Shown piece after piece: positions 1,060 through 37,855 of a stretch of 64,000 nt of DNA (within the stretch, counting starts at the first letter, position 1; each line of letters starts with the position of its first letter). A program made the translations under genes and the position numbers. Below the pieces are notes generated by a model, which was not told the DNA's origin, did not search any database, and worked only from the letters and a program-made list of their open reading frames with translations. The stretch covers positions 62,001 through 126,000 of the forward strand of contig JAHIFE010000096.1 in NCBI GenBank assembly GCA_018901125.1. Direction: 5' to 3'. The stretch comes from Pseudomonadota bacterium (lineage in GTDB: Bacteria > Desulfobacterota > Desulfobacteria > Desulfobacterales > RPRI01).

Positions 1060-2082
1060 TTATTTTGCCGAAGGCCCGACAACCGGGATAGCACCCATCA
1101 CTTTTATCCGGTTGCCCTCGGTTATAATAGCCGCAGATCGTGTGCCTACAATAAAAGCCCTGTCGCCGCCAAGAAGCGCAGTGCCGGAAAACCAATTTAG
1201 CCTTACCTCCAGTGACACGGGAACAGTACTCCAGGTCTTGCCACCGTTATTGGTTACCATAATCGTACCACGGTCACCGGCCGCTATTCCGTGATTCTGG
1301 GACAATTTAACATCATAAAGGGCCTGCTGCTCTGTCGTTTCGCCGGTATTGGCTTTAATAGGCTGCCAGGTAAGACCTCCATCGTCTGTTATCAGCATAA
1401 TACCGCTCAAACCAACGGCTACCCCATGCTTGTTTGAAGAAAAGGATATTCCAAAAAGGGTCGTTTCAGTACCTGAGTTCTGAAGAGTCCAGGTCTTACC
1501 ACCATCTGTCGTATGCAGTATTTTCCCAAATTCCGCACCCATCCATCCTTCCTCTTCTCCCTTAAAGTCTATAGCGTATATGATCATATCCTCTGTATAG
1601 CTCCTGTCCTCCCAGGTCTTGCCGCCGTCTTGTGTATAGAAAATAGCTCCCCAATCCCCTGATGTCCAGCATTTTTGAGGGCTGATAGCCTTAACGGCAA
1701 GCAGTTGCTTTTTTTTGGGAGCCTTCTGTTCCTCCCAGGTTTTGCCGCCGTCAACAGTATGAAATATTGCCCCGGATTTTCCCACAACCCAGCCTGTTTT
1801 GGAATCGCAGAAAGAAATGGACAGGAGAAGAGTTTCCGTTCCTATGGTTTGTCTTTCCCACTTCATTCCGCCATCTGTAGTGTGATACACAGAGCCCCTG
1901 GCTCCTGCGGCCCATCCCTCCTCACCGACAAAACATACTGAATAAAGGTGATCACCATGGACTTGCTTTTCTTCCGTAGCATAAACCGAACTGCCGGTGA
2001 GAATCAGCAACACTGATAACAATGCTAATATAATAAAAGGGATTCTTTTCTGTTTCATCTTTTTCCTCGCCACCCTCTTCAT
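1060..2082 (-). CDS. YCF48-like/BNR-repeat beta-propeller, secreted (module 1)
   Basis: Signal peptide and repeated 'HTTDGGKTWxxQ' / 'GWxVGxxG' motifs. Conserved start may be MKQKRIPF near 2058. Confidence 0.9.
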   Translation of the reverse strand: MKRVARKKMKQKRIPFIILALLSVLLILTGSSVYATEEKQVHGDHLYSVCFVGEEGWAAGARGSVYHTTDGGMKWERQTIGTETLLLSISFCDSKTGWVVGKSGAIFHTVDGGKTWEEQKAPKKKQLLAVKAISPQKCWTSGDWGAIFYTQDGGKTWEDRSYTEDMIIYAIDFKGEEEGWMGAEFGKILHTTDGGKTWTLQNSGTETTLFGISFSSNKHGVAVGLSGIMLITDDGGLTWQPIKANTGETTEQQALYDVKLSQNHGIAAGDRGTIMVTNNGGKTWSTVPVSLEVRLNWFSGTALLGGDRAFIVGTRSAAIITEGNRIKVMGAIPVVGPSAK

Positions 2083-2196
2083 GATTATTTTATTCTATAG
2101 TTTCAGACCTGCTCTGTTTGAGTTGCTTGGGGATAGATTCTATAACTGTCCGTTACAAAACAAAGATCATCCACCAAATAGCATAGATTATTTCTC

Positions 2197-4611
2197 TCAA
2201 GCCCTATATTTATGTAAAATCTTTTCCGGACCGATGATAGAAACCAAAGCCGGCAAAACCGTGAGAGCCCCCACCATGTTGGCAACCAGAAGAAAGGCCA
2301 GCAACAGTGCCATTTCAGCCTGAAATTTGAAGCTGGCAAAAACAAAAAATATAACCGATACCACCAGTGTTGTGGAAGTAAATATAATGGCTTTTCCCGT
2401 CGTTGTAATAGCCATATAGCGGGCTTTTCTGTAGTCGCCCTGGCTGAACTGATACTCTTCCGCCAGCCGGCTTAAGATATAAATGCCGTAGTCTACACCT
2501 ATACCTACGCCCACCGATGCCACCGGCAGCGAATTGATGTTCAAATCGATTCCCATCGTCAGCATCAAAAGATCGCTCAGTACCTGGGACACCAACAGTG
2601 GTATAAAAAGCACCACCGCCCCCCACCAGGTTCTGTAAGCAATTGTGCAGAACAGAAAAGTGGCGCCAAAGATAAGGCCCATGTTAATCCAGTAGGACCA
2701 TTCAACCTCCTCATTTACGGCAGCAAGAATTCCCAGGATGCCGCCCGCCAGATGGAAGGTCACCTGCTTTGCCGGATTATTCCTGATATATTCTTTAAGA
2801 GACGCAATGGCGTTTTTTATTGACGTATTGTTATAATCACGGAAGTAAAGAGTTACCGTCGCATTGGTATTCTCTGCTGCTACGTAACGGTCCATCTCGC
2901 TGCCACTTGTAGAACCGGCGATCAAACGCAATACCTGTTCCACATCCCCCGATTTTTCCGGCAACATAGCCCACTTGGGGTTTCCTTCGTGAAACATCCT
3001 GAAAACTGTTTTAATCATGTCGCTGATGGTAACGGCACCTCCAACGGAGGGTATGTGATTGGTGGCGTATCTTCCCATATCATCGATGAGTCTTACTGTT
3101 TCTTCATCCGCGATCGCTCCTTCCTTTTTGCCTTCGGCGACAACAATAAGCTGGCTGGAGCCGATAAATTCCTTGTTTATAAGATCGCCTGCAATATTAT
3201 AGGGATGATCATCATACAAGATAGCCTTACCGGCGCTGGTATCACCCACCTTCAAATATTTTTGTGTAACATAGCCGCCTCCAAAGATAATCAAAACAAC
3301 CAGTGCCAGGACAATCCACTTTCTGCCCCCCTGGGACAGAGCAATCAAGAATTCCCCTAACTTCACATATATTTTATCACCTGGACGGGCGGTAATGCTT
3401 TTAATTCTTTCTCTGGCCTCATCTGTACTCAGACCGGCCAGCTGGCCTTTCTTTAAATGTTTTGCCCGCGGCGGAGGTAAAAGCGATACCAGCACGGGGT
3501 GCATTACAATTGAGCTGACATAGATAGAGATGATCCAGAAACTACCGTAGATGGCAAGATTACGCATAAGCGGGATACTGGCCACGGCGATGGTTAATAC
3601 CCCCAGGCCATCGGTGATCAGTCCCAAAATGCCGGGCTTGTATAAATAGCCGTAAGCGTTGATAATAGCCTCCTTCTGTTCCCCAACGGCAGCATATTCC
3701 TCATGGTACCGTTCCATGGACTGGACGGAATGGCTCAAGGCCCTGGCTGATAAAAGCAGCGGTACCACCAATACCAGAGGGTCAACACTTATATTCAGGG
3801 CAGCGGCAAATCCCAGGCCCCATATAGCGCTTACCAGCGCTGAAATCATTGGAATGAAGATCCCCATAAAACTTCTAAAATACCACCAGAGCAAAATAAG
3901 CATAACTACCCCGGTTACGATGAAAACATTGTATAGCTGGGGGGTATAGTGAGCTATCCATGCATAAAGCATCGGGTAACCGGTAATGTAAAGGGTGTTG
4001 TTATCATCGTCTGCTTCCGACTTGATCTTCTTCATTTCCTTGAAAAGATTATCAAGATCCAGGCCCTCTTCCCAAAACCCTGCGGATATCAAAGCTGCTT
4101 TATCATCGAGGGAGACATACATACCACGCACCCCCTCGTTGCTATAGACCTTTTCCTTTAAAATTCTCATTTCCTCCGGAGTCTTGAGCGCACCCTTCAC
4201 TATAGGCTCGATATTGATTCCCCCGGCCCCCACACCGTAATTCTTGAGCCGGGGATGGGTCAGGGAGATAATCTGCAGATTATCCACCCCTTTGACAGCC
4301 ATAATTTGTTTAGTGATCCGATCCACCTTCTCAATAGTTTTCACATTGTAGATGTCACCGTTTTTTACAACTAATGCCATTGTCATTACGTTCGCCGTAC
4401 CGAACATGCTGCGATATTGCTTATAAAGCTGGATATACTCATGTTTTGGAGGATAGAGATCAAAAAAATCAGTGTGGACTCTCAGACTGAAGCACTTGTA
4501 ACCGAAAAACAGGGTTCCTAAAACAATCAGCGTCAGCATCAGGATAGGACGACCCACATGAAATTCGACCAATTTTAACCAAATTGTCTTTTTGTGTTCG
4601 CTTGTCATCAA
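2197..4611 (-). CDS. RND superfamily exporter (MMPL/HpnN-like) (module 1)
   Basis: 804 aa, two sets of TM segments, 'GVGIGVDYGIYILSRL' motif, very similar to two other copies in the window. Confidence 0.93.
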   Translation of the reverse strand: MMTSEHKKTIWLKLVEFHVGRPILMLTLIVLGTLFFGYKCFSLRVHTDFFDLYPPKHEYIQLYKQYRSMFGTANVMTMALVVKNGDIYNVKTIEKVDRITKQIMAVKGVDNLQIISLTHPRLKNYGVGAGGINIEPIVKGALKTPEEMRILKEKVYSNEGVRGMYVSLDDKAALISAGFWEEGLDLDNLFKEMKKIKSEADDDNNTLYITGYPMLYAWIAHYTPQLYNVFIVTGVVMLILLWWYFRSFMGIFIPMISALVSAIWGLGFAAALNISVDPLVLVVPLLLSARALSHSVQSMERYHEEYAAVGEQKEAIINAYGYLYKPGILGLITDGLGVLTIAVASIPLMRNLAIYGSFWIISIYVSSIVMHPVLVSLLPPPRAKHLKKGQLAGLSTDEARERIKSITARPGDKIYVKLGEFLIALSQGGRKWIVLALVVLIIFGGGYVTQKYLKVGDTSAGKAILYDDHPYNIAGDLINKEFIGSSQLIVVAEGKKEGAIADEETVRLIDDMGRYATNHIPSVGGAVTISDMIKTVFRMFHEGNPKWAMLPEKSGDVEQVLRLIAGSTSGSEMDRYVAAENTNATVTLYFRDYNNTSIKNAIASLKEYIRNNPAKQVTFHLAGGILGILAAVNEEVEWSYWINMGLIFGATFLFCTIAYRTWWGAVVLFIPLLVSQVLSDLLMLTMGIDLNINSLPVASVGVGIGVDYGIYILSRLAEEYQFSQGDYRKARYMAITTTGKAIIFTSTTLVVSVIFFVFASFKFQAEMALLLAFLLVANMVGALTVLPALVSIIGPEKILHKYRA

Positions 4612-4836
4612 TTACTCCTCACAATTATTAATTGTGTCTTCACCTTTAATGTTCTCAAAATAGAGCCAAACCCTTTAAGCGCCTCGCAACAACGGGAAAA
4701 ATGTTTTGTAATTTTTGCTCATTATTCGGGGACTAATTCCATATATTTCATATCGTTGAAACAATGAAACCAGTCCCCGCAAAAATCGCCCCATATTAAT
4801 CCTATCCTTAAAATCATCACGGAGATTGCCTGCCTT

Positions 4837-6162
4837 TTACTTGGACAGGGCCATTAAATTACTTTTCGTATAAAAATCCATTGGCATCCTGGAAAGTGGC
4901 ATATACATCGCGAATTTATCGCCAGGCGCATTAATGTGAACAGTTACTGTGGCATGGCGGGCCTTCTCGTCAATTTGTGTCTGGTCATTCATTACCCCTA
5001 CATTATTATCACCGTCCGGGGCTTCGTTATAATCTCCGATGTTAAATGTCCAAGTGCGGAATTCCCCGGCTTTAGTATCTATTTCCTTCATCCAGATCTC
5101 GCCGGTCTCCTTATCCACCCAATTTCTGTGCAAACCCCAGGCATAATATTCGTCTTTTGGCTTCTGTTCAATTATCCAGCATTTCCTGGGAGTCCAGATT
5201 CCACTGGTAAGCGCCCACTTGACGCCCTTCCAGCCTGGAGTTTCGTAGCCATATTTATTCGTTGTTGCGTGCAGAAAGAGTGTTCCATCGGGATCTTTCT
5301 TGACCATTGTCTTATCGGAACCGGCAAAAGGGACAAGAATCGTCTGCTCACCTATAAGTTTCCATGTCATCGTTCTGTTCTTCCCACCCCACAAGAAGGT
5401 CAGATCCTGCCAGCCATCAGATCCCATCCAGGGGTCGGACCTGCTCACGCCTGAGGTTTGCCGAATCCGGCGGATGACAGGTACATAAGCCATCTGAACC
5501 ATATCGCGTTTATCCATATAGTCCCAATCCAGCTGATTGGTGTTTCGCATACTGTAAGGTTCAAGTATTATACCGAATTCGGCATAAGACCAATGATCGG
5601 TATTTTGGCTCTCCGGCACCGCCTGCCACGGCGGCCTTCCCTGTATACCCATGAGACGCGAATCCGACAGTATATAGCGATGGATGCCCTTTTCTTCGCT
5701 TACCCATTGAATGCGTTGCAGATAATGATATCCTCCTATTCTGCCTTTGTTAAAATAGACATTCCACATTATCTTATCTGCAACCTTTGGATCCTTGGGA
5801 TCAATATTGGGAAAAGGAAATCCATAAATATGGTACATTGGGATCTTTCCTGTTTTGTCAACCAAATCACCTTCGGCGTTTATATCAAATTTTCCTGCGT
5901 TTTTCTTACCCGCCTCCAGGAACGTATCCCATTGCTTGTACTCAAAGCTTAATTTCCCGGTGTTGAGAATGTAATCGCCCCTTTCCACAGCCCGGTAAAG
6001 GGCAGGCATGAGCAAGTCCTTGTATTGCGCAACATTGCTCTTATCTATCGTTTTGCCGATTTCCCCGGCCGCCGTGGCAGAACTGACTCCACACACCATA
6101 ATCAGCATCGCAAACAAAAACCGGACCCACCAATCTGAAAATCTTATTGTTTTAGTTCTCAC
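4837..6162 (-). CDS. DUF1329 family (outer-membrane lipoprotein-sorting-like) protein (module 1)
   Basis: 'PALYRAVERGDYIL', 'PVIRRIRQTSGVSRSDPWMGSDGWQDL', signal peptide. GTG start at 6162 after AGGAGG matches the GTG start of copy 2; the ORF track extends to 6234. Confidence 0.88.
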   Translation of the reverse strand: MRTKTIRFSDWWVRFLFAMLIMVCGVSSATAAGEIGKTIDKSNVAQYKDLLMPALYRAVERGDYILNTGKLSFEYKQWDTFLEAGKKNAGKFDINAEGDLVDKTGKIPMYHIYGFPFPNIDPKDPKVADKIMWNVYFNKGRIGGYHYLQRIQWVSEEKGIHRYILSDSRLMGIQGRPPWQAVPESQNTDHWSYAEFGIILEPYSMRNTNQLDWDYMDKRDMVQMAYVPVIRRIRQTSGVSRSDPWMGSDGWQDLTFLWGGKNRTMTWKLIGEQTILVPFAGSDKTMVKKDPDGTLFLHATTNKYGYETPGWKGVKWALTSGIWTPRKCWIIEQKPKDEYYAWGLHRNWVDKETGEIWMKEIDTKAGEFRTWTFNIGDYNEAPDGDNNVGVMNDQTQIDEKARHATVTVHINAPGDKFAMYMPLSRMPMDFYTKSNLMALSK

Positions 6163-6227
6163 TTTTTCCTCCTTATAGCTATCGCAAGAATAAAATAAGC
6201 CGCTTGTTATTTTTGTTCTGCTCATGC

Positions 6228-7760
6228 TCACCATTCGTAACCCATTTTAAAGGTTGCCTCACTCGTATTCACAAGTCCCGCAAAGCCTGACTTGGCAGTC
6301 TTATCCCCTAAAAAGGCGTGCAAGCCCAGGCTTGAATACATATGGGGGGATATTTGCCAGGATACGACAGGATGGATATAACCCGAACCTCCCCCTGCCC
6401 CGGGCCCTCCCGGAGTATAAGCAGCAGCAATCACCGGAGTAATTCTACCCTCAAACCAACTCCAATTCATGGTAAATCCGATTATGTCCATATTCCTCAC
6501 CGGACTCCCCGCTTTAGCAAATTCAGGATGATTTAAAACAGATTCCCAACTATTAATTTTCTGATGTGTCCATTCCAGGGAGAAACCAATCGGTTCATGA
6601 CTGGTAATCCATCGCACATAAATATTTTTGTCAATCGCAAGCATATACTGAGTTACCGGTTTAAGGCGAAACGTATATGCTTTTACTCCAACTATATCAG
6701 GCGCAAGAGGAGAGAGAGAAACCGGCTGCGCCGAATGCTGCGCAATCTCGCCTCTCAGAACTAGATCCAACGGTGAAACCTGGTAGCTGAAATATGCGCC
6801 GTAAACATCCTGGGACGGATGAGTGAGAAAAGCCGTTCCAGTGGCTAAATTTATTACGGTACCGGGATCATTGTTAACATCCCGGTAATATGCCGCGGAC
6901 ATACTGAGCAGACCGACATCCAATGATACCTTTGCACCATACTCCTGCTTGTTTGTAGGCACATCCTGCCGGACATTCATTCCTCTCAGAGCGGCGAATG
7001 GTAATATGGAAACATAAGGCGCGTTCATGCCTGCCGTGGGGTTACCGGCAACACTGTCCAGCGGTCCAAACTGAGAAGGACGTATATCAGGAACCCATAA
7101 CAAATCAAAATTAAGTCTGAAACCATGCGCAGGAGGTATACTGTAGTTCAGGCGCGCCATCCAGAGAGGAATCTTGACATCATCAGGATTCTGAAAAAAT
7201 AACTGATAGGATTGGTCCTTGGGATTAATAACGTCCAGAAGAGTGGCGTTAGGTGAAGATTCACCCCAGGAGACTAGCTGCCTTCCGGGCCGGAAGAAAG
7301 CACTGCCCAGTGATCCCCCATAATTGAAATCAATAAACGCCTCGCGCAAATCACTTTCGAATCTGATGTCTCTTAAACCATAATCAAATCTTGAAGCACC
7401 CATGCTATCCCTGATATCACCATATTTATTGGCCCGAAAATCAAAGATCGAATCATAAGCCCCCCGATAGGTCAGTTGTAGCTTCGACAGCCCGAAATCT
7501 CCCCATTTTAAATCAGGGTCAACTGAAATGTCGAATTTTAAAGTATTTCTCTGCTGAACTCCGTTCAGATGGTCTAAAAAACCATACTGAACACCATTTT
7601 GATCACGCATAACCAAGTTTGATTCAAAATAACCGTGAAAGCCAACAGTTGCATTACCCCCACTCTCCGCATATACTTCGGCGGTAAATAACCCCAATAT
7701 GGCTGCAACAACGAAAATGTACAGCCATTCTTTTCTTCTTGTTCTTCCTTTACTTCTCAT
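6228..7760 (-). CDS. DUF1302 family outer-membrane protein (module 1)
   Basis: Signal peptide; 'FHGYFESNLVMRDQNGVQYGFLDHLNGVQQRNTLKFD', 'FRPGRQLVSWGESS', C-terminal 'FKMGYEW' beta-barrel-like end. Confidence 0.88.
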   Translation of the reverse strand: MRSKGRTRRKEWLYIFVVAAILGLFTAEVYAESGGNATVGFHGYFESNLVMRDQNGVQYGFLDHLNGVQQRNTLKFDISVDPDLKWGDFGLSKLQLTYRGAYDSIFDFRANKYGDIRDSMGASRFDYGLRDIRFESDLREAFIDFNYGGSLGSAFFRPGRQLVSWGESSPNATLLDVINPKDQSYQLFFQNPDDVKIPLWMARLNYSIPPAHGFRLNFDLLWVPDIRPSQFGPLDSVAGNPTAGMNAPYVSILPFAALRGMNVRQDVPTNKQEYGAKVSLDVGLLSMSAAYYRDVNNDPGTVINLATGTAFLTHPSQDVYGAYFSYQVSPLDLVLRGEIAQHSAQPVSLSPLAPDIVGVKAYTFRLKPVTQYMLAIDKNIYVRWITSHEPIGFSLEWTHQKINSWESVLNHPEFAKAGSPVRNMDIIGFTMNWSWFEGRITPVIAAAYTPGGPGAGGGSGYIHPVVSWQISPHMYSSLGLHAFLGDKTAKSGFAGLVNTSEATFKMGYEW

Positions 7761-8438: not shown

Positions 8439-9944
8439 ATGGCTGCTTTACAAGGAACAACGGTTTCCCCACATAATACTGTGCTTTATGAATCGCTGGG
8501 CTCTCTGATCAAGGATTACCGGCGTTGGCGCAAAATTTCTCAGGAGAGGCTCGCAGAATTGATCCGGGTCGGCGATAGAGAATTACGAAACTGGGAAGCA
8601 AATCGTCGCCGGGTCAGTACCGAGAATCTCCATGATATCTCTGAAGTCACCGGCATACCAATGCAAGTGTGTGTTGCTCTTAATGCGGGTCAACCTATCT
8701 GGTATTCTCTGCGGAAGAGACTGTTTATGTACTCTTCCCTGGAAAATGCCCAGTTTGCCTCGCCTGAGTTATTCAGACACCGTGAAACATCAGGGGACAA
8801 CGCTCTCCTTAAGAGAGTTACTATTTCCAAAGATAAGCATATCGGCATGATTCTTTCGTGTCATAAGGATCTATATGGTTCCGAGAAACTATTGCTAAGC
8901 AATGTCATCAAGGCTGCTACACGTATACTTCCCGACCTGAATAACATTATAATTGACTCCTGGAATCATTACATAGGTCATCAAGTCTGTTTACCCATCC
9001 AAATGGATGCATATCAAACACTAAAAAAACAAAAATCTATAGAAAATTATATTAATAGTGACATTATAAGCGACATTATTGCTCTGGGTGGAGGTGTTTT
9101 TTTCTATTATTCTACATTCGGAGCTAATATAAGTGCAGCATCCCGGCTGATTTTAGACGGTGCGCGCGGTCTCTCCAAAATAGAACAAAAAGAACAATAT
9201 CTGATCGCCAGCCATACAGTTACAAAAGAATCAGCAATTATCCAGGAAAATGCGGGCATGAGGTTTGCCCAGGATTATGCATGCGGGCACGATGGAATTC
9301 GCTCAGCAATCTACGAGATAGGGCTGGATTATTATCTGAGGCAAAACGGTCCGGTAGGATGGATACTTGATCAGTTTACCGAGGAAGCATTGTCTAAAAA
9401 TATGAAAAGAGATAAATTTTCATCAACCGTTGATAAGCCGTCATTAATCGTTGATAGAAACAGGCAGGATAATCAGGATGCGAAGACGCCCGTGCATGAA
9501 GCTTGTACAAATGCAACCTGTCGCCAGTATGGTAAACCAGAAAAAGGGAATATTGTTTCCAACGGAACCTATTCCAAAAAGGATGGAACTACAGGTCGCC
9601 GCTTCCTTTGCAAAGAATGCGGCAAATCTTTCTGTAGCAGAACAGGTACTATATTTTATGACCTTCGTTCACCGGAAGAGAAGGTTTACCAGGCCATTAA
9701 ACTTTTAGCCAAGGGAATGACTTTAAAATATGTAGCTAACTTCCTCGGAATTAAATTTGTTACGGTCAGTCACTGGCTCAAAATTGCCGCCAGACAAAGG
9801 GAAAAAATTGATGCCATGCTGATTAATGAGCCGGAAATTTCCCGCTCTGAGTTAGATGCCTTCTGGACCTTCGTCAAAAAGAATTCTCTTCGACAAAGAG
9901 CACATCTTTTCAGCACTAAAAAGAAGCCTCATAAAACGAATTAG
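8439..9944 (+). CDS. Chimeric regulator 1: XRE-like HTH + GNAT-like region + transposase-type zinc-ribbon/HTH
   Basis: N-term 'LGSLIKDYRRWRKISQERLAELIRVGDRELRNWEANRRRVSTENLHDISEVTGIP'; C-term 'CTNATCRQYGKPEKGNIVSNGTY...RRFLCKECGKSFCSRTGTIFYDLRSPEEKVYQAIKLLAKGMTLKYVANFLGIKFVTVSHWLKIAA' ending at 'ELDAFWTFVKK'. Confidence 0.85.
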   Translation: MAALQGTTVSPHNTVLYESLGSLIKDYRRWRKISQERLAELIRVGDRELRNWEANRRRVSTENLHDISEVTGIPMQVCVALNAGQPIWYSLRKRLFMYSSLENAQFASPELFRHRETSGDNALLKRVTISKDKHIGMILSCHKDLYGSEKLLLSNVIKAATRILPDLNNIIIDSWNHYIGHQVCLPIQMDAYQTLKKQKSIENYINSDIISDIIALGGGVFFYYSTFGANISAASRLILDGARGLSKIEQKEQYLIASHTVTKESAIIQENAGMRFAQDYACGHDGIRSAIYEIGLDYYLRQNGPVGWILDQFTEEALSKNMKRDKFSSTVDKPSLIVDRNRQDNQDAKTPVHEACTNATCRQYGKPEKGNIVSNGTYSKKDGTTGRRFLCKECGKSFCSRTGTIFYDLRSPEEKVYQAIKLLAKGMTLKYVANFLGIKFVTVSHWLKIAARQREKIDAMLINEPEISRSELDAFWTFVKKNSLRQRAHLFSTKKKPHKTN

Positions 9945-15871: not shown

Positions 15872-16891
15872 TCACTTTTGCTTCAGGGTGGGCAAATAAC
15901 CCATCAACTTTACCTGGTCACCCTCGATTATTATGGTCATCGAACGCGCGCCAACTATGATTGCTTTTTTATCACCCAAAAACTCAAGTCCGCTGAACCA
16001 GGCTAGTTTTATCTCAATAGAGGTTTCTGTTTGCTGCCAAGTTTTTCCACCGTCTTGGCTAGTCATAATTGCTCCACGGTCTCCTACTGCAATACAAAAA
16101 TCACCCTGCATTATAACTTCATAAAACGTTGGCAACTCCCCTTTATCATCAGGTGCTATGGTTATTGTTTTCCAGGTTATGCCGCCGTCTTCCGTCCTTA
16201 ACACAGTGCCGCCCAAACCTACCACAACCCCTTGCGTCTTCGAAGAAAAAGATATCCCGAACAGTGTGTTTTCAGTTCCGGAATCCTGAAGGCTCCAGGT
16301 TTTACCTCCATCCTTAGTGTACAATATTGTGCCGAACTCACCGGCCATCCAACCCTCTTCTTCATCATTGAAGACCATGCTGTAAAAAATAACATCCTTT
16401 GGATATGTATTGTTCACCCAGGTCTTCCCGCCGTCTTCCGTATAGAAAATTGCTCCCCAATCGCCTGCGGCTACACATTTCTCCGGGCTCAGGGCTTTTG
16501 CCGTAAAAAGGTGCTTTCTTTCAGGTGCAGTCTGCTTGTTCCAGGTCTTGCCGCCATCAATTGTATGAAGAATAGTACTGCCTTTCCCTACAATCCATCC
16601 TACCTTGGGATTGCAAAAGGAAACGGATAAAAGCATCATTTTCGTGCCGGCATCCTGATACTCCCAGTTCAAACCTCCGTCTATGGTATGCTGGATATTT
16701 CCCCGGGCGCCCACAGCCCAACCTTCTTTCTCATTCACAAAACATAATGAATACATGCTATCCTTGAACCTTTGCTTTGCGGACGAAGCAAAAGAAAGGC
16801 CGCTTTGAAATATGTATAATGCAGACAGCAATACCAGGATAATAAGCTGGGTACTTTTCCATTTCATCTTATTTTCAACCCCTATCTTCAT
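15872..16891 (-). CDS. YCF48-like beta-propeller (module 2)
   Basis: 'HTIDGGKTWNKQ', 'YTEDGGKTWVNN'; paralogous to 1060-2082. Confidence 0.9.
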   Translation of the reverse strand: MKIGVENKMKWKSTQLIILVLLSALYIFQSGLSFASSAKQRFKDSMYSLCFVNEKEGWAVGARGNIQHTIDGGLNWEYQDAGTKMMLLSVSFCNPKVGWIVGKGSTILHTIDGGKTWNKQTAPERKHLFTAKALSPEKCVAAGDWGAIFYTEDGGKTWVNNTYPKDVIFYSMVFNDEEEGWMAGEFGTILYTKDGGKTWSLQDSGTENTLFGISFSSKTQGVVVGLGGTVLRTEDGGITWKTITIAPDDKGELPTFYEVIMQGDFCIAVGDRGAIMTSQDGGKTWQQTETSIEIKLAWFSGLEFLGDKKAIIVGARSMTIIIEGDQVKLMGYLPTLKQK

Positions 16892-16998
16892 AGATTTTGT
16901 TCCTCTCTGTGATTACGTATTTGATCCTGTGCTGTTGCCGGGGTACAGATTTCAACCTATACCCCGGCAATGCAATGTAATGGCAATCTGTTCTGATA

Positions 16999-19413
16999 TC
17001 AGGCCCTGTACTTGGGCAATATTTTGTCCGGACCTATAATTGATACCAGAGCCGGCAGTACCGTCAGCGCCCCCACCATATTGGCAACCAGCAGGAAGGC
17101 TAATAGTATCGCCATCTCGGCCTGAAATTTGAAATCGGCGAATACAAAGAAAATAACTGAAATAACCAGGGTTAAGGCCGTAAAAATGATCGCCTTCCCT
17201 GTTGTGGTTATCGCCATGTAACGGGCCTTTCTGTAATCACCGTCGCTGAACTGGTATTCTTCCGACAGGCGGCTCAAAATATAGATACCGTAGTCCACAC
17301 CTATTCCCACACCTACCGAAGCCACAGGCAGGGAATTAATATTCAGGTCAATCCCCAGCCCAAGCATCAAAAGATCACTCAGGACCTGCGATACAACAAG
17401 AGGGATAAACAAGACCAGCGCACCCCAGAATGTCCGATAGGCAATTGTGCAAAACAGGAATGTAACGCTAAAAATGAGCGAGATATTTATCCAGTAGGAC
17501 CATTCCACCTCCTCATTAACAGCGGCTAAAATGCCAAGAATGCCTCCGGCCAAACGGAACTTTATATGCTCAGACGGATTATCTTTGATATATTCCTTAA
17601 GAGTCGATATGGCTTTGGTAATAACTTCATTATTGTAATCGGCGAAGTAAAGGGTTACGGCCGCATTCTTTTTATCTCCTGAAATGAAGCGATCCATGCT
17701 TCCACCGGTTGATGATCCTGCTACCAAGCCTATTACATTTGCGACATCGAACTTTTTTTCGGGTAACATGGCCCACTTGGGATGACCGTCGTGAAATTGC
17801 CGGAAAACTGTTTTTAACATGTCGCTTATCGTAACAGCCCCTCCAACTTGGGGTATTTCGTTGGTAGCATAAATGCCCATCTCATCAATAAGCCTGATGG
17901 TGTCAGCGTTAGCAATTGCTCCTTCCTTATCGCCTTCAGCTACTACAACCATCTGACTGGAACCGATGAAATCACTGTTAGCCTTATCCGCAGCAATATT
18001 ATATGGATGATCAGGATAAAGGATAGCCTTGCCGGCGCTGGTATCTCCTACCTTCAAATGTTTATGCGTTATATAACCGCCCCCTAAGATAACTATAATA
18101 ACCACAGCCAGAACGATCCACTTCCGAAACCCCTGAGTCAGGGAAATAAGAAACTCACCAATCTTTATGTATATTCTATCACCGGGACGCGCCGTGATCT
18201 CTCTTAGTCTCTCACGCGCCGTTTCCTTGTCTAGACCCGCAAGCTCGTCCTTCTTTAAATGCTTGGCCCGAGGCGGCGGCAGGAGTGAAACCAGAACAGG
18301 ATGCATAACTATCGAGCTGACATAGATCGAGACAATCCAGAAACTACCGTAGTAAGCCAGATTCCGCATCAAAGGGATGCTGGCTACGGCAATGGTGAGC
18401 ACCCCCAGGCCATCGGTGACAAGTCCCAGTATGCCGGGCTTGTAAAGATAGCCGTATGCGCTGATAATGGCCTGCTTCTGCTCACCTACAGCGGCGTATT
18501 CCTCATGATAGCGTTCCATGGACTGGACAGAGTGGCTCAAGGCTCTTGCCGATAAAAGCAGCGGTATTACCAGAACCAATGGGTCAACGTTGATTCCAAG
18601 CGCTGCCGCAAAACCCAGGCCCCAAACAGCGCTCACGAAAGCTGAAATAATGGGTATGAATACGCCCATGAAGCTTCTAAAATACCACCACAGCATGATG
18701 AGCATCACCAGCGTTGTCACGATGAAAACATTGTAAAGCTGAGGGACATAGTGGGCTATCCAGGCATAAAGCATAGGATAGCCTGTAATATAAAGGGTGT
18801 GGTTCTCATCTTCTACTTCAGACTTGATCTTTTGCATTTCATTAAATAGATTATTCAGGTCCAGACCTTCTTCCCAGAACCCGGCGGCAATCAATGAGGC
18901 TTTATCATCCATGCTGACATATACGCCACGGACTCCTTCATTGCTATAAACTATTTCCTTTAATCTTGAAAGCTCTTCCTTAGACTCGGGTATGGCTCTT
19001 ACTATCGGATTAGACCTGAGACCATCATTACCCACACCGAAATTCTTCAACCGTGGATGAGTAAGAGATATTATCTGTAAATTATCCACCCCGTCTACGG
19101 TCATTACAAATTTTGTAATTTTATCAATCTTTTTGATGGTTTCGGTATTATAGATATCCCCATCCTTTACCTCGATAATTATGCTCATCAGGTTCGCGGT
19201 GCCAAACATTGTGCGGTATTGCTTGTAAAGCTGTATGTACTCATGTTTGGGAGGGTAGAGATCGAAAAAATCGGTATGGATTCTCAGGCTGAAGCACTTA
19301 TAGCCGAAAAACAGGGTGCCAATAATGATTAAGCCCAACATCAGAATCGGATGGCTCACATGATATTCGACCAATTTCAACCAAATTGTCTTATTGCCCT
19401 TATTTGTCATCAA
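16999..19413 (-). CDS. RND superfamily exporter (module 2)
   Basis: 804 aa, near-collinear with the other two copies. Confidence 0.93.
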   Translation of the reverse strand: MMTNKGNKTIWLKLVEYHVSHPILMLGLIIIGTLFFGYKCFSLRIHTDFFDLYPPKHEYIQLYKQYRTMFGTANLMSIIIEVKDGDIYNTETIKKIDKITKFVMTVDGVDNLQIISLTHPRLKNFGVGNDGLRSNPIVRAIPESKEELSRLKEIVYSNEGVRGVYVSMDDKASLIAAGFWEEGLDLNNLFNEMQKIKSEVEDENHTLYITGYPMLYAWIAHYVPQLYNVFIVTTLVMLIMLWWYFRSFMGVFIPIISAFVSAVWGLGFAAALGINVDPLVLVIPLLLSARALSHSVQSMERYHEEYAAVGEQKQAIISAYGYLYKPGILGLVTDGLGVLTIAVASIPLMRNLAYYGSFWIVSIYVSSIVMHPVLVSLLPPPRAKHLKKDELAGLDKETARERLREITARPGDRIYIKIGEFLISLTQGFRKWIVLAVVIIVILGGGYITHKHLKVGDTSAGKAILYPDHPYNIAADKANSDFIGSSQMVVVAEGDKEGAIANADTIRLIDEMGIYATNEIPQVGGAVTISDMLKTVFRQFHDGHPKWAMLPEKKFDVANVIGLVAGSSTGGSMDRFISGDKKNAAVTLYFADYNNEVITKAISTLKEYIKDNPSEHIKFRLAGGILGILAAVNEEVEWSYWINISLIFSVTFLFCTIAYRTFWGALVLFIPLVVSQVLSDLLMLGLGIDLNINSLPVASVGVGIGVDYGIYILSRLSEEYQFSDGDYRKARYMAITTTGKAIIFTALTLVISVIFFVFADFKFQAEMAILLAFLLVANMVGALTVLPALVSIIGPDKILPKYRA

Positions 19414-19642
19414 TCATTCCTCACAAAAATTATTGTTATCTTCACCAAGGATAGCCATGAAGCTTAGGCGAATTTAATCCCAGAAAAACAACTATATACT
19501 TTATCGATATGCAGATCTGTATATCCCGCCGGGGATTGAAACTAAATCCAGACGAAGGTCAAAATCGGGTTTCCTTACCTAACTGAATTCATACCTACGC
19601 AAGACAATAAATGTAATTTCTTTACTAAAATTTATTAAAAAG

Positions 19643-19702
19643 TTTGGGGGCCTCTTCTATGCATGGGTTTAAAAACCCGGAGGTATGAAATCGGCCCCCA
19701 AA
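19643..19702 (-). terminator. Stem-loop between DUF1329 and RND of module 2 (intra-operon terminator/attenuator candidate)
   Basis: TTTGGGGGCC ... GGCCCCCAAA perfect 10-bp arms with an inner GGGTTT/AAACCC; on the minus strand followed by CTTTTTAATAAATTTT. Confidence 0.65.
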
Positions 19703-19748
19703 CCGCATATTGTTAATCCGCTCATTTAAGCATTGATTAACGTTCCTT

Positions 19749-21086
19749 CTATTTGGACATGCGCATTATATATTCTTTGGTGAATATATCTGGCGACAAT
19801 CTGGACTTAGGCATAAACATGGAGCTTTTTTCCTTATTCACTGTGTCGTTCTGAACCCATCCGGATGTAGCATGGCGCGCCTTCTCGTCAATTGTCATCT
19901 GAATATCACGCATCCCTACGTTATCCCGCCCCGATGGCGTTACGGTCTTGGTATATACGGCGATACTCCAGGTACGGAATGCACCCGTTTTGTCGTGTAT
20001 TTCCTTCATGAAGATAACGTCGGTTTCCTTATCCATGTAATTGATATGCAAGCCCCAGGCATAATAGGGATCTTTAGGCAGCTGCTCCATCACAATGACT
20101 CTCCTTGGTACCCAGACTACATTAAGCAGAGCCCATTTTGCGCCTTTCCAGTTAGGATCCTGAAAACCAATTTTGATGGGAGCGTAATTAAAGTGATAGG
20201 TGCCGTCCGGATCTTCAGTGGTGTGGCGTAAATCGACTTGTGAAAATGGGCAGAGCATCGTCTTTTCCCCCACAACCTTCCAGTTCATCCATGTGTTTTT
20301 CCCGTCCCACATAAAACCCAGATCCTGCCAGGCGTCAGAGCCGAAATATGGGTCGGATCTTACAACACCGGATGACTGCCGTACTCGGCGGATGGATGGT
20401 ACATAAGCAAAAGTGGTTACATCACCATCATCCATATAATCAAAGATTAACTGATTTGTTCCAAACATATCAAAAGGCTCCATATTCATACCGATTGACA
20501 TCTTTATATAATGGTTAGGATTATCTTTTTCCGAAAATTCTTGTCCCGGCGGACGGCCGGTCATCATAAGCTCGTAGCTATTGGTCCATATATAGCGATG
20601 CTCGCCTTTTTTGTTATCTATCCAGGTAACCTTGTTCTGATAATGTTCACCCAGAATACGATATTTATTCCACTGGAAATTATACATGATCTTGTCGGCA
20701 TACTTGGGATCTTTGGGATCAAGATGGGGGAAGGGCCGGCCATAGATATTGTAAAATGGAATTTTCCCCGTCTTCTTATCTATTAAATGCCCAGTGGCAT
20801 CGACTTCGAATTTTCCGGCGTTTTTCTCACTGGCTTCCAAGAATTTTTTATCATACTTATACTCATAATTCAATTTAGGTGCAGTATTCAGGACAAAATC
20901 GCCCCTTTCAACAGCACGGTACAGAGCCGGAACCAGAAGGTCTTTGTATTGGGTACAGTTGCTCTTGTCGATTACCTTAGCGAGTTCTTCGGCAGCAGAC
21001 ATAGAAACGCCACCTAAAAACATTATAAATGCCAGAAACAACGGCAATATAAAATACTTTGAAGCGTTTATCGTTTTTTTTCTCAC
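19749..21086 (-). CDS. DUF1329 family protein (module 2)
   Basis: 'PALYRAVERGDFVL', 'IRRVRQSSGVVRSDPYFGSDAWQDL'; GTG start after GGAGG. Confidence 0.88.
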   Translation of the reverse strand: MRKKTINASKYFILPLFLAFIMFLGGVSMSAAEELAKVIDKSNCTQYKDLLVPALYRAVERGDFVLNTAPKLNYEYKYDKKFLEASEKNAGKFEVDATGHLIDKKTGKIPFYNIYGRPFPHLDPKDPKYADKIMYNFQWNKYRILGEHYQNKVTWIDNKKGEHRYIWTNSYELMMTGRPPGQEFSEKDNPNHYIKMSIGMNMEPFDMFGTNQLIFDYMDDGDVTTFAYVPSIRRVRQSSGVVRSDPYFGSDAWQDLGFMWDGKNTWMNWKVVGEKTMLCPFSQVDLRHTTEDPDGTYHFNYAPIKIGFQDPNWKGAKWALLNVVWVPRRVIVMEQLPKDPYYAWGLHINYMDKETDVIFMKEIHDKTGAFRTWSIAVYTKTVTPSGRDNVGMRDIQMTIDEKARHATSGWVQNDTVNKEKSSMFMPKSRLSPDIFTKEYIMRMSK

Positions 21087-21153
21087 TTTTTCCTCCTTTA
21101 TCGCTTTCCCGTTTATGGAAAACCTTGCTGGTTGGTTTTCCTAACCTTCATCA

Positions 21154-22710
21154 TTACCAGTTGTAACCAAGCTTAAAAGTCATCTCACTCGTAGGAACAA
21201 GTCCGGCATAACTACTCCTGGATGTCTTGTCTCCAAAGAACGCTTGTAAACCCATGTTGGCATATAAATTAGAGGATATCTGCCATGTTACTTCCGGGTG
21301 AATCATAGCCGATCCGCCTCCTGCTCCTGGCCGTCCGGGATTGTAGTAAACAAGAAAATACGGAGCAATCCTGCCTTCCCACCAACTCCATGACACGCTA
21401 AAGCCGAAGATATCCAAATCCCTTACCTTACTTCCGGTTTTCGACGATTCCGATTTATTGAAAAGAGCCCCATCCCATTCGTTGATCTTCTCATGCGCCC
21501 ACTCAAAGCCAAAACTCGTCCTCTCATGATCGGTAATAAACGGCACCTTAATTTTCTTGTCCGCCGCCAAATACCAACGTGTAACCGGTCTGTAAGCAAA
21601 TGTTGCCAAACCATCCGGCGTATTTCTAAAGTATCTGGTGTTGAGCGAAATCGGTTCTCCCGTATGACGGGCGATCTCACCTCTGATAACAAGGTCAAGT
21701 TCAGCTATATTATAACTGAAATAAGAGCCGTAAACATGCTGCACATTGTGAGTAAGTAGATACTCATCAGGAGGAATTCTAGCGAAAACATTTGCTAATG
21801 TTACAGGAACGCCGCCTGACATATGTGAAATTACGGCGCCAAAATCATTATTCACATCACGGTAATAAGCTGCGGAAACGCTTAATCTGTCCCCGATGTC
21901 TGCAGTTACTTTCGCTCCGTACTCCTGTTCTTCCGTCGGAACTTTCTGGCGGACATCTGCGCCTACAAAACTGCCGAACGGCAGGATTTTTATATAAGGT
22001 GCCTGCAAACCTACCGACCTGTTACCGGCAACAGAGTCAAATGGACCAAATTGCGCTGGCCGGATATCGGGAACCCAGAGTAAATCAAAATTAAGAGCCA
22101 AGCCTTTCATAGCGGGAGTGCTGTAGTTTAGCCGTCCCATCCATAGAGGTATTTTCACATCATCTGGTTTCTGAAAAAACATCTGATATGATTGATCCTT
22201 CGGATTGATTATGTCCATAATGGTGGAAATGCCCCCCGCCTCACCCCAGGATACAATCTGCCTGCCCGGTCGTAAAAAAGCGCTGCCTAAAAATCCATTA
22301 TAGCAAAGATCTGCAAAAGCCTCCCGTAAATCAGACTCAAATTTTACATCTTTCCTGCCATAATCGAACCTTGAAGCACCCAGATTATCCTTGATGTCTC
22401 CATATTCATTAGCCCGAAAATCGTATATCGAGTCATAAGCACCACGAAAGGTCAAATGCACTTTCGAAATTGAGAAATCCCCCGCCGACGCATCAGGATA
22501 TATGTCAACATCGAATTTTAAGGTATTTCTCTGCTGCACACCTTCTACTTGATCCATAAAACCATACTGGAGACCGGTTGTATCACGCAAAACAAAATTG
22601 GATTCGAAATAGCCATGAAAGGTGCTTTCAAACGCATTAACCTCAACAGCAAACATCACGAATATAGCCGCTATGGTTAACACATAAATAATCCCTCTTC
22701 TTCTTTGCAT
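21154..22710 (-). CDS. DUF1302 family outer-membrane protein (module 2)
   Basis: 'FHGYFESNFVLRDTTGLQYGFMDQVEGVQQRNTLKFD', 'FLRPGRQIVSWGEA', C-terminal 'FKLGYNW'. Confidence 0.88.
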   Translation of the reverse strand: MQRRRGIIYVLTIAAIFVMFAVEVNAFESTFHGYFESNFVLRDTTGLQYGFMDQVEGVQQRNTLKFDVDIYPDASAGDFSISKVHLTFRGAYDSIYDFRANEYGDIKDNLGASRFDYGRKDVKFESDLREAFADLCYNGFLGSAFLRPGRQIVSWGEAGGISTIMDIINPKDQSYQMFFQKPDDVKIPLWMGRLNYSTPAMKGLALNFDLLWVPDIRPAQFGPFDSVAGNRSVGLQAPYIKILPFGSFVGADVRQKVPTEEQEYGAKVTADIGDRLSVSAAYYRDVNNDFGAVISHMSGGVPVTLANVFARIPPDEYLLTHNVQHVYGSYFSYNIAELDLVIRGEIARHTGEPISLNTRYFRNTPDGLATFAYRPVTRWYLAADKKIKVPFITDHERTSFGFEWAHEKINEWDGALFNKSESSKTGSKVRDLDIFGFSVSWSWWEGRIAPYFLVYYNPGRPGAGGGSAMIHPEVTWQISSNLYANMGLQAFFGDKTSRSSYAGLVPTSEMTFKLGYNW

Positions 22711-22730
22711 TTAAATAGCCCTCCTTTTCT

Positions 22731-22845
22731 GTAAGTACTGTTATAATAACAAGCTTACAAATGTTAAACCCCTTTTCTCTACCTGCCTCTTCCGGTCATA
22801 CAAACAATCCTCCTTTCCTGTAAGTAGTGTGCAAAACATACTTAC
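22731..22845 (-). promoter_or_regulatory. Tandem leader hairpins upstream of DUF1302 (module 2)
   Basis: 22731-22758 GTAAGTACTGTTATAATAACAAGCTTAC and 22820-22845 GTAAGTAGTGTGCAAAACATACTTAC, each next to an AGGAGG-like site on the minus strand. Confidence 0.55.
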
Positions 22846-22981
22846 AAATATTAAACAGCTTCTACTCACCATAACCATCGGGAATGTAGTCTTTGACCTT
22901 ACTATCCAACAGCTGCCAAAATTATATGGTATGATCAGTAAAAAATTAAAAAACATATCTCTTCCAATTGAGCTTTGATAA

Positions 22982-23746
22982 TCAGGGGACTAATGTACTT
23001 GGAACCCCGAAAACTCCTCTTATTACTAATTGGGGTAGTACATTGGTTATAAAAAACGTTACGGTAAATATCAGGGTAAACCAACCGAGCCTTGCTACCT
23101 CGCGACTCAAGCCCGGCATTAAATCGTCCAGATGAAACATCCGCTCCCAACTGGCAACACCGTTTGCATCACGTCCCAGCAGCGTAACCATGATAGCCGC
23201 CCATGGTCCCAGCAATATTGGCGGAAATAAGAGAGGAAAATTGCCCTTGGCATGATATAATGTTGGGCCGATGGTATGTGCATATGTCCACCAGCCCTTG
23301 GCAACTGCTCCCGACTCTACCGCAACATCATATACCCACATTAAAGGTACGGCCGTCAGCATCGCCACGAGCAGTCTTGAAGCTTTAGGAAGTCGCCGGC
23401 AAATCCAATCTACCAAAAGGCTTAGCATGGGGATTGCAAAGCCGAAAAACCATCCCCAGGCAAAAGGGATGCAAAGAGGTTTAACCGGCGTCGTGAAAGG
23501 AATGTCGCCCGACCAGGGCATCCTGATAAATTCCGGGTTCCAGGCAAGATAGGCGCCCCAATCGGCAAAGTATTCCTGCCAGGCGCTTAATGTTGCGGCA
23601 CCAAGAACCAGTGCCCATGTTGATAAACGCCCCGTTCGCCAGGCATACCAGATATGGATCACTACAAATAATGACCACATGACAAAGCTGCCCTCCTGAT
23701 TCTGCCACAGATCAATAGGATGCCCCATTCTATTTTCCACCCCCAT
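22982..23746 (-). CDS. Polytopic membrane protein, possibly AveC-like
   Basis: 254 aa, multiple TM segments, 'WWTYAHTIGPTLYHAKGNFPLLFPPIL'. The AveC resemblance is weak. Confidence 0.5.
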   Translation of the reverse strand: MGVENRMGHPIDLWQNQEGSFVMWSLFVVIHIWYAWRTGRLSTWALVLGAATLSAWQEYFADWGAYLAWNPEFIRMPWSGDIPFTTPVKPLCIPFAWGWFFGFAIPMLSLLVDWICRRLPKASRLLVAMLTAVPLMWVYDVAVESGAVAKGWWTYAHTIGPTLYHAKGNFPLLFPPILLGPWAAIMVTLLGRDANGVASWERMFHLDDLMPGLSREVARLGWFTLIFTVTFFITNVLPQLVIRGVFGVPSTLVP

Positions 23747-24490: not shown

Positions 24491-24561
24491 TACATTAAAT
24501 CTATTCAGTGGTTCCTGATTTCTTGACATCAACTTTACTTTATGTGCTTGAGGAAAATATT

Positions 24562-26172
24562 ATGTCTTCTACGATTTCATTACCACGAAAGAAGTTTTCG
24601 TCTGATAATGCAAAACTATATAAATCTCTTGGATCTCTCATCAAAGAATACAGACAATGGCGGAAAATAAGCCAGGAGACATTCGCGGAATCAATCAAAA
24701 TCAGCGTTCGGGAATTACAGAATTGGGAAGCTAACCGGCGCCGTGTCAGAATTGAGAACCTCCACGATATTTCCGAATTTACCGGGATTCCCATGCAGGC
24801 TTTGGTTGCTCTTAATGCAGAACAGCCAGGCTGGTATTCTTTACGGAAACGGCTGTTTACTTACTCTTTGATTGAAAAAGTTCAGTTTTCCTCTCACGAG
24901 TTATTCAGACCGGGTGAGACACCAGAAGACCATTCTCTCCTAAAAACGGTAACGATTACAACAGAAAAACAAATGGATATGATTCTTTCATGTCACCGGG
25001 ATCTTTACGGTACAAATATATCCTTGAAAAAAGATGTAATCATGACAGCTGCCGAAACACTTCCTGAGCAAAACAGTATAATTTTTGATCATTGGGGTCA
25101 TTATGTGGCTCATAAAGTCTGTTTACCAATAAAAATGGATATATATCAGGCACTCATAAAGCAAAAGACCCTTGAAAACTATCTGACTAGTGAAATGATT
25201 AGTGATATTAATGCCCTGGGCGAGGGTGTTTTTTTCTTATATTCTACGTTTGCTGCCAATGCAATCGTATCATCCCTGATGACTTTAGATGGGATACGAG
25301 GTTTTTCTAAAATAAAACGGAAAGAAAAATTCCTGATTGCAAGTCATACAGTCACAAAAGAATCAGAAATCATACAGAATAATTTGAAGATGCGTTTTGT
25401 AAGGAATTATGATCAGTTGCATGATGAAGTTTGTCCAACAATTTATGATACAAAACTGGGTTTTTTGTTAAGGCTTGACGGACCTTTTGGCTGGATGATT
25501 GAACCGGTTGCCAAGAAAGCTATGAATCTGATCAGAGCGACCCAACAAAAATTGTCGCCGGAGTTTTCTGTTCAAGACTCAGATGAATTCAGACGTCCAA
25601 ACAAAAGTTTCCATCCAACGAAGACATCAGAAAATAAATTGCCTATAATCGTTGACGCATTGCCTTCAATCGTTGATGAAAAGAAACGGAACAGACAAGA
25701 TGGAAAAACGCAAGATATTAAGCCACCAACAGAAGCTTGCACAAACCCGAAATGCGCCCTTTACGGCAACACAGAAAAAAGCAATATTGTTTCCAATGGT
25801 ACGTACCAGACAAAGAAAGGAACGCCGGGTCGTCGATTTCTGTGCAAAGAATGTGGTAAATCCTTTTGCAGCAGAACAGGAACTATCTTTTATGACATCC
25901 GTTCTCCTGAAGAAAAGGTTCTTATGGCCCTTAAGCTTTTGGCCAAAGGCAGACCCTTACAGCATGTGGTAGAATTTTTGGGAGTTAAGTTCCATACGGT
26001 TCGTCACTGGCTCGAAGTTGCCGCACTGCAAAGGGAAAAAATAAATGCCATGCTGATTAATGAGCCGGATATATCCCGGGCTGACTTAGATTCATTATGG
26101 ACTTTTGTTAAAACGAAATCCCTTCGACAAAGAGCGCTTCTATGCAGAACGAAAAATAAATCATCTATATAA
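24562..26172 (+). CDS. Chimeric regulator 2: XRE-like HTH + GNAT-like region + transposase-type zinc-ribbon/HTH
   Basis: Paralogous to 8439-9944; start MSSTISLPRKKF aligns with regulator 3. The track ORF begins at 24508. Confidence 0.85.
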   Translation: MSSTISLPRKKFSSDNAKLYKSLGSLIKEYRQWRKISQETFAESIKISVRELQNWEANRRRVRIENLHDISEFTGIPMQALVALNAEQPGWYSLRKRLFTYSLIEKVQFSSHELFRPGETPEDHSLLKTVTITTEKQMDMILSCHRDLYGTNISLKKDVIMTAAETLPEQNSIIFDHWGHYVAHKVCLPIKMDIYQALIKQKTLENYLTSEMISDINALGEGVFFLYSTFAANAIVSSLMTLDGIRGFSKIKRKEKFLIASHTVTKESEIIQNNLKMRFVRNYDQLHDEVCPTIYDTKLGFLLRLDGPFGWMIEPVAKKAMNLIRATQQKLSPEFSVQDSDEFRRPNKSFHPTKTSENKLPIIVDALPSIVDEKKRNRQDGKTQDIKPPTEACTNPKCALYGNTEKSNIVSNGTYQTKKGTPGRRFLCKECGKSFCSRTGTIFYDIRSPEEKVLMALKLLAKGRPLQHVVEFLGVKFHTVRHWLEVAALQREKINAMLINEPDISRADLDSLWTFVKTKSLRQRALLCRTKNKSSI

Positions 26173-26179
26173 AGTGATA

Positions 26180-30781: not shown

Positions 30782-32095
30782 TTATTTACTTGCTTTCAAG
30801 AAATTGGACATGGTAAAGTCTCCTGGTACAAGCCTGTTAGCAGGAAGATATAATTCATGCGGGTTTTCAATATTCGACATAGTAGAATGACGGACTTTTT
30901 CATTTGTTATAATGTAAGCATCTACCTCCCCAATGTCATTTCTCCCGTCCGGAAGTTCACAATAGCTGCGGGGAGCGATCATCCAAACCTGGAATTGGCC
31001 TGCTTTATCATATACTTCCTTGTGCCAGATAGAAAATGTCTCCTTATCGACATAATTTACATGCAATCCCCAATTATAATATGGATCTTTGGGCATCTGC
31101 TCTACGACCCAGCACTTTCTGGGAACCCATTTCGCCGATGTTATGGCCCAAGGGGCGCCCTTCCAGCCTGGGGTATCATAACCGAATTTCTTCTCCGGCA
31201 TTCTCCGGAGAAAAGTTCCATCCGGTTCTTCCGTTGCCTGACCCTTGTTGATATCAGTGAAAGCAACGAGAATTGTCTTCTCTCCCACCACTTTCCACGT
31301 CATTGTTGAGTTTTTCCCATCCCACATGTTAGCCAGATCATTCCAGCTATCTCCTCCCATACTAGAATCTGAACGGGAAGCCCCGGACGACTTGCGAACC
31401 CTCCGAATAACGGGAACGTAAGCAAAGACGGTATTGTCCCGGTCGTCAGCGTACTCCCAGTTCATCGTATTCATACCTTTCACACTCATAGGAGATTCAT
31501 AACATAACATACATTGATACAGGAAGCCGCTTGGATTTTCTATTTCCCGGCCTGGCGGCCGGCCCTGATAGAACAAATAAGTTGAGCCTTGCCCGTCCAT
31601 GCGATAAACACGCTCCACCCCTTTTTTTTCATCTACCCAATAAACAATGCCGCTGGCGTGAACGCTCATAGTACGATATCTCATGAATTTGAAATTCCAG
31701 ATAATCTTGACTCCTGATTTGGAATCTTTGGTATCTATATGGGGGAAAGGCAATCCATAAACATTGTGTTTGGGGAATTTCCCGGTTGCTTTATCAATTA
31801 AATTGCCCTCTTTGTCCACATCGTATTTACCTGCATTCTTTTCACTTGCGGCCAGAAAGCTCGCTGGAAGTTTGAAAGGAAAGGATAAAGTAGCTGTCGG
31901 GAGAATATAATCACCTCTTTCCACGGCCTTATAAAGAGCTGGCGGGAGCAAATCTTTGTATTGCGATACATTAGTATTATCAACTGTCTTGCCAATCTCC
32001 CCAGCCTTTATGGGCGCAGCCCAGCAAAGCAATATTGCGGCCCACAAAAGCGTCCATCTAAGCCGCCCAAAAATCCTTATTCGTTTCTCTTTCAT
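30782..32095 (-). CDS. DUF1329 family protein (module 3)
   Basis: 'PALYKAVERGDYIL', 'VPVIRRVRKSSGASRSDSSMGGDSWNDL'. Confidence 0.88.
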   Translation of the reverse strand: MKEKRIRIFGRLRWTLLWAAILLCWAAPIKAGEIGKTVDNTNVSQYKDLLPPALYKAVERGDYILPTATLSFPFKLPASFLAASEKNAGKYDVDKEGNLIDKATGKFPKHNVYGLPFPHIDTKDSKSGVKIIWNFKFMRYRTMSVHASGIVYWVDEKKGVERVYRMDGQGSTYLFYQGRPPGREIENPSGFLYQCMLCYESPMSVKGMNTMNWEYADDRDNTVFAYVPVIRRVRKSSGASRSDSSMGGDSWNDLANMWDGKNSTMTWKVVGEKTILVAFTDINKGQATEEPDGTFLRRMPEKKFGYDTPGWKGAPWAITSAKWVPRKCWVVEQMPKDPYYNWGLHVNYVDKETFSIWHKEVYDKAGQFQVWMIAPRSYCELPDGRNDIGEVDAYIITNEKVRHSTMSNIENPHELYLPANRLVPGDFTMSNFLKASK

Positions 32096-32171
32096 TTATT
32101 CCTCCCTTATAGTTTTGGTTTTTTCAAATACCAATAGCAGAGTAGTAAAATTTTGATTATCCTCTCATGAA

Positions 32172-33710: not shown

Positions 33711-33716
33711 ATCCTC

Positions 33717-34805: not shown

Positions 34806-34871
34806 TTCTGACTCGATCCTGAAATCAGGAATATACGCCGGCAGTTGCCGGCATGACGCTTTCTTCTCGTG

Positions 34872-37286: not shown

Positions 37287-37327
37287 TTACTCCTCACATT
37301 TTTAATTGTATCTACAACCTTAATTCA

Positions 37328-37855
37328 CTAAGCATTCCCCGCTCTTGTGAGCTCTACCATTCTCTCTGGACTGAGGGTGCCTGCCTGAGGATCCCAACCT
37401 CGCTCCTCATAGTAATCCGTTATCAGCCGCTCAAGGTATTCCATATTGAGCGGGGGATACGTTACCTTTCCAGCCTGGACAAAATCCGTAAGGAATCTTT
37501 TCGGCACTCTGTCGTCCTTTCTATTTGCTCCCTCCCGAATGTTGAGAACTTTACTTATGTCTCTACCGCGCGCCGTCATTTCATAAATCTCCGCAGCATC
37601 AACATTGATCCCTGTAGCAGCCGAATAAAGGTTGGCCCACACGCTGATATCGAATTCCTGATAGATATAAAGAAAGCATAGCCCTAAACATTCCAGCGCA
37701 AAGCTTTAGTTCTCAGCCCACTTGGTCAAACGGGCCACGTTGTTTCCACCGGGGCCAGTGAGAATGCGCTCCATATCTTTCTCCGGCATTGCTATCTTTT
37801 GGCAGTATCTGCGCAAGTCTTCCGCTGTTGCCCCAACTAAAAATTTGTACTTGTG
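37328..37855 (-). pseudogene. AOR C-terminal remnant with in-frame stop
   Basis: 'GPGGNNVARLTKWAEN*SFALECLGLCFLYIYQEFDISVWANLYSAATGINVDAAEIYEM...YEERGWDPQAGTLSPERMVEL'; the frame reads through one TAA. Confidence 0.8.

Follow-up and report, generated by a model that had tools for sequence, protein, structure and literature searches.

The window analyzed here, a 64,000-nucleotide stretch of genome G000 from an uncultured anaerobic bacterium (C143:62001-126000), encodes three members of a lineage-specific protein family that are likely to be one-component local regulators of transport and anaerobic-catabolism operons, each combining a probable non-catalytic GNAT-like sensor with an N-terminal XRE helix-turn-helix (HTH) and a second, transposase-derived DNA-binding domain. 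This reading, in which a one-component protein pairs two DNA-binding domains with a GNAT-like sensor, is drawn from the precedents of InsA and BzdR. On balance, we lean toward the broader view that transposase capture recurs as a source of bacterial transcription factors. In this view one GNAT-sensor core would have gained DNA-binding domains on two occasions, from transposase families that are not related, and would have spread together with the operons it targets, its paralogues also exchanging C-terminal domains.

Architecture of the proposed regulators

The initial annotation had described three paralogous ORFs with an N-terminal XRE-like HTH, a GNAT-like middle region, and a C-x4-C zinc ribbon plus HTH resembling the N terminus of IS1-type transposases. 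All three ORFs were present where it had placed them. Pfam HTH_3 matches identified the XRE HTH at the N terminus of copies 1 to 3, and matches to NF033558 confirmed the IS1-type zinc ribbon and HTH. Copies 1 and 2 stop just after the LDxxW-TFVK motif, as had been proposed, and copy 3 carries the variant ELEALCAF. The ATG start of copy 2 at 24562 is backed by the family alignment; an alternative GTG lies upstream at 24508.

8439..9944 (+): regulator copy 1, 501 aa; XRE, GNAT-like, IS1-type zinc ribbon/HTH, catalytic stub
8508..8666 (+): copy 1 XRE HTH (HTH_3, E 4.7e-13)
8685..9410 (+): copy 1 GNAT-like middle domain, aligned to the modelled copy 2 domain
9498..9827 (+): copy 1 IS1 (InsA-like) zinc ribbon and HTH (NF033558, E 3.5e-11)
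9828..9911 (+): copy 1 vestige of the first DDE motif, ELDAFWTFVKKNSLRQRA, by alignment with transposase L023
24562..26172 (+): regulator copy 2, 536 aa
24640..24798 (+): copy 2 XRE HTH (HTH_3, E 2.4e-10)
24817..25539 (+): copy 2 GNAT-like middle domain, modelled (AlphaFold2 and Foldseek)
25732..26061 (+): copy 2 IS1-type zinc ribbon and HTH (NF033558, E 7e-9; model has three strands, then helices)
26062..26145 (+): copy 2 vestige of the first DDE motif, DLDSLWTFVKTKSLRQRA, by alignment
38173..39822 (+): regulator copy 3, 549 aa
38251..38412 (+): copy 3 XRE HTH (HTH_3, E 1.4e-13)
38428..39156 (+): copy 3 GNAT-like middle domain, by alignment to the other copies
39376..39705 (+): copy 3 IS1-type zinc ribbon and HTH (NF033558, E 1e-7)
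39706..39789 (+): copy 3 eroded catalytic stub, ELEALCAF (Asp to Glu, Trp to Cys)

The middle domain had no convincing Pfam or PDB sequence match, and its assignment to the GNAT fold, made with moderate confidence, comes from structure. An AlphaFold2 model of the copy 2 domain, of moderate confidence and built from 6 sequences (pLDDT, 69.8; pTM, 0.71), was compared with the PDB using Foldseek. Almost all of the matches listed were GNATs (best E value, 3.7e-6; probability, 1.00; TM score by query, 0.33 to 0.48), in line with the GNAT-like region originally suggested. The acetyl-CoA loop R/Q-x-x-G-x-G/A, expected between beta4 and alpha3, could not be made out in the family consensus when the alignment was judged by eye. 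The domain thus seems to lack the usual acetyl-CoA pyrophosphate loop, and the sensor is probably non-catalytic.

Origin of the IS1-type tail

The four cysteines of the C-x4-C ... C-x2-C zinc ribbon, which is followed by the HTH, are invariant in all 47 tail-bearing members. The tail is 35 to 36% identical to transposase ORFs of relatives in the same order, where the same N terminus is followed by a transposase body (for example, L023 1420-2604; Pfam DDE_Tnp_IS1, E 2.5e-10). In a full-length relative, the motif aligned to the stub is LDEMWSFV, and LDxxWxFV is common to both. The tail is therefore assigned to the IS1 family by homology of its zinc ribbon and HTH, and the DDE catalytic domain of that family is absent. 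The first catalytic Asp is kept in 30 of 43 members and lost in the other 13, so that, judging from the alignments, catalysis is not kept in the tail. A structure model of the C-terminal part gave no significant Foldseek match.

In a tree with 19 transposases, the IS1-type tails formed one clade of their own (support, 98/99), indicating a single capture followed by amplification. Selection was estimated from 18 pairs, of which 16 were tail bearing; omega (Nei-Gojobori) was 0.08 to 0.25 in the zinc ribbon/HTH, 0.12 to 0.32 in the GNAT domain, and 0.30 to 1.06 in the linker, single values being rough because some dS estimates are near saturation. These values show strong purifying selection on the zinc ribbon/HTH. 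A search of G000 gave no full-length relative of the tail, and the ORFs are therefore not fragments of resident transposases. Together, homology reaching into the first catalytic motif, the single clade, and low omega bear out the earlier proposal that a transposase DNA-binding module was captured and kept through duplication.

Distribution of the family

The initial annotation had seen three copies, a count that stands for the window; the genome as a whole holds 16 members plus a fragment. Including 15 members in G005 and 23 in G009, two genomes of the same genus, 54 were analyzed, and orthologues occur in different genomes. The search for this architecture elsewhere that had been suggested at the outset returned tens of copies, in three genomes of the genus. 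Of the 10 genomes of the genus, only 3 had the regulator core; it was not found in the other genomes of the sampled class (390) and phylum (395) sets, which partly overlap, by profile searches that began with a loose first look and could miss very distant relatives. It was likewise absent from the viral contigs and phages searched.

Seven members, short or of the IS630 type described below, have no IS1 tail, which is thus not essential to the family. The short members are scattered over the core tree, suggesting losses of the tail; no convincing tail remnants were found 3' of them. Core and tail trees disagree with good support on some members (window copy 3, L063, and L081), a conflict consistent with tail exchange between paralogues, as read from an unrooted core tree and few genomes (three). 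One member of 861 aa (L072:9578-12163) has a duplicated middle domain.

A second capture from an IS630-type transposase

One line of the family carries the regulator core without the IS1 tail and has an IS630-transposase DNA-binding domain at its N terminus instead. It is represented by one orthologous copy in each of the three genomes (L057:1613-3058 in G000, L074:8329-9777 in G005, and L147 in G009). The N terminus of L057 matches the IS630 transposase model NF033545 (E 1.1e-14), which identifies the IS630 DNA-binding domain, and is 47 to 50% identical to annotated plasmid IS630 transposases among the best matches listed. By homology, the IS630-type N terminus is a second, independent capture. 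Within the window, small minus-strand ORFs lie just 3' of copy 2 (26165-26365; HTH_32 match, E 3e-7, below the cut-off of that model) and just 3' of copy 3 (40036-40224; no Pfam match). Each resembles what is left of another IS630-type transposase, although for the second this was judged by eye alone.

Divergent operons and DUF1329 cassettes

Each window copy lies opposite a minus-strand cassette:

1060..7760 (-): opposite copy 1; DUF1302 6228-7760, DUF1329 4837-6234, MMPL/RND 2197-4611, YCF48-like 1060-2082
15872..23746 (-): opposite copy 2; 254-aa ORF without Pfam match 22982-23746, DUF1302 21154-22710, DUF1329 19749-21086, MMPL/RND 16999-19413, YCF48-like 15872-16891
30782..37642 (-): opposite copy 3; aldehyde ferredoxin oxidoreductase fragment 37328-37642, MMPL/RND 34872-37286, YCF48-like 33717-34805, DUF1302 32172-33710, DUF1329 30782-32095

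Like 22982-23746, ORFs 28907-29983 and 46257-47348 in the catabolic region of the window have no Pfam match.

The envelope transport module first described opposite each copy is thus seen in the window, as an ameABCD-like set of DUF1302, DUF1329, RND, and YCF48 proteins, but it does not extend to the whole family, in which the usual divergent partner is either a transport or an anaerobic-catabolism operon. Further partners include Mo-enzymes, URO-D methyltransferases, FAD proteins, and aldehyde ferredoxin oxidoreductases. Divergence from the neighbor was found for 42 of the 47 family members with a neighbor, compared with 73 of 350 other genes (21%), the neighbors counted being at least 80 aa for the family and at least 150 aa for the background. 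DUF1329 matches numbered 19, 29, and 33 in the three genomes with the family, whereas the other seven genomes of the genus, which lack the family, had none.

Outside the window, a hairpin element of about 100 nt flanks DUF1329 genes in G000, G005, and G009 (for example, L092:1760-1872 and L078:8162-8271). A pattern search found 46 sites in the three genomes and 0 with a reversed-pattern control. Of these sites, 39 lie upstream of a DUF1329 domain start and within 450 nt of it; the element has the orientation of the gene at 30 of them and is inverted at the other 9. The L092 copy folds at -49.3 kcal/mol (z, -7.7). For the element, nothing in Rfam reached the gathering threshold. A consensus fold of 15 copies has 24 pairs, 12 of which include at least one sequence changed on both sides with the pair kept; this covariation is suggestive, in an alignment that has unpaired cells at many pairs and one inverted copy (L072). 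The element may act as an RNA, as a DNA site, or as a small mobile element.

Proposed mode of action and other readings

Sequence words enriched upstream of the regulators came mainly from a TTGACA resembling a -35 box, from the hairpin element described above, and from one clade's conserved block near the start codon; such clade-level blocks may reflect paralogy. Sites resembling transposon ends, as defined on related elements in genome G057, showed no general enrichment over shuffles in the regions upstream of the regulators, to which the search was confined, and two window sequences scored highest. Because neither the word enrichment nor the site search identified an operator, the mode of action is one that we infer. 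A regulator would bind the divergent intergenic region through its two DNA-binding domains, and its XRE domain would act close to the promoters of the regulator gene and the operon. The transposase-derived domain would add specificity or bridge a second half-site, much as InsA represses from the IS1 terminal repeat, and the GNAT-like domain would probably sense a pathway metabolite, possibly an acyl-CoA.

Ending at the first catalytic motif, and in L050, L051, L065, and L066 even earlier, the ORFs might be taken for truncated or decaying transposases, or for chance fusions, with a functionless C-terminal part. The purifying selection on the tail, with its invariant cysteines, largely refutes this, and 54 genes in three genomes, with orthologues across genomes and a conserved divergent placement, speak against it as well; we regard it as highly improbable, and the truncated-transposase reading was rejected on the selection and the gene placement. 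Scarcely more probable is that the proteins are active accessories of mobile elements, the core helping an IS1-like element in the choice or repression of targets close to catabolic operons. Like InsA (PMC12428005), the transposase-derived domain could recognize transposon ends in trans, but the search of the genome gave no homologous full-length transposase, sites resembling transposon ends show no enrichment upstream, and the genes adjoin operons.

Two further alternatives concern single domains, and we consider each unlikely. The zinc ribbon/HTH might serve dimerization or protein contact rather than a second DNA binding, which would suit the absence of a shared operator from our searches and the several members that do without it. 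Against this, the zinc finger and HTH of InsA are needed to bind IS1 ends (PMC12428005), and the IS630-type line, which has no zinc ribbon/HTH, carries an unrelated transposase DNA-binding domain. The middle domain might be an active N-acetyltransferase, making the proteins DNA-bound modifying enzymes and not ligand sensors. Its Foldseek matches are largely catalytic GNATs, but the acetyl-CoA loop cannot be seen in the consensus of the family.

Comparison with known systems

An XRE-type DNA-binding domain is also found in BzdR. In this regulator of anaerobic benzoate metabolism, the N-terminal DNA-binding domain is linked to a fold that was once an enzyme and now binds a CoA-thioester of the pathway (PMC3602430); BzdR differs from the regulators described here in its shikimate-kinase fold and in having one DNA-binding domain. 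InsA of IS1 consists of a zinc finger and HTH without a catalytic domain and represses transcription (PMC12428005). The same zinc finger and HTH recur here, but InsA is encoded by its element and represses it, whereas the domain in this family is fused to an XRE-GNAT core beside host operons. Like the window cassettes, ameABCD of Castellaniella defragrans encodes DUF1302, DUF1329, YCF48-like, and HAE3 RND proteins; its role in monoterpene efflux has been studied (PMC6394551), whereas the likeness of the window cassettes lies in their parts list. If the regulators act as proposed, transport cassettes of the ameABCD type gain a candidate regulator.

Prokaryotic hosts are known to reuse DNA-binding proteins of mobile elements, as with Ner/SfsB and Xre antitoxins (PMC8987985) and TldR (PMC13418256). 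As described there, these are phage repressors, antitoxins, and RNA-guided factors, and none of them joins the DNA-binding domain of a DDE transposase to a regulator. The open literature that was searched yielded no bacterial transposase-derived transcription factor of this kind, which does not prove that none exists. In animals, transposase domains have been captured as transcriptional regulators many times independently, according to a study of transcription factors from transposons (PMC10027918). Compared with the cases given there, the present regulators are bacterial, draw on IS1 and IS630 sources, and include a GNAT-fold domain; if our interpretation is correct, their tens of copies, two captures, and link to DUF1329 make the steps of such capture testable in bacteria.
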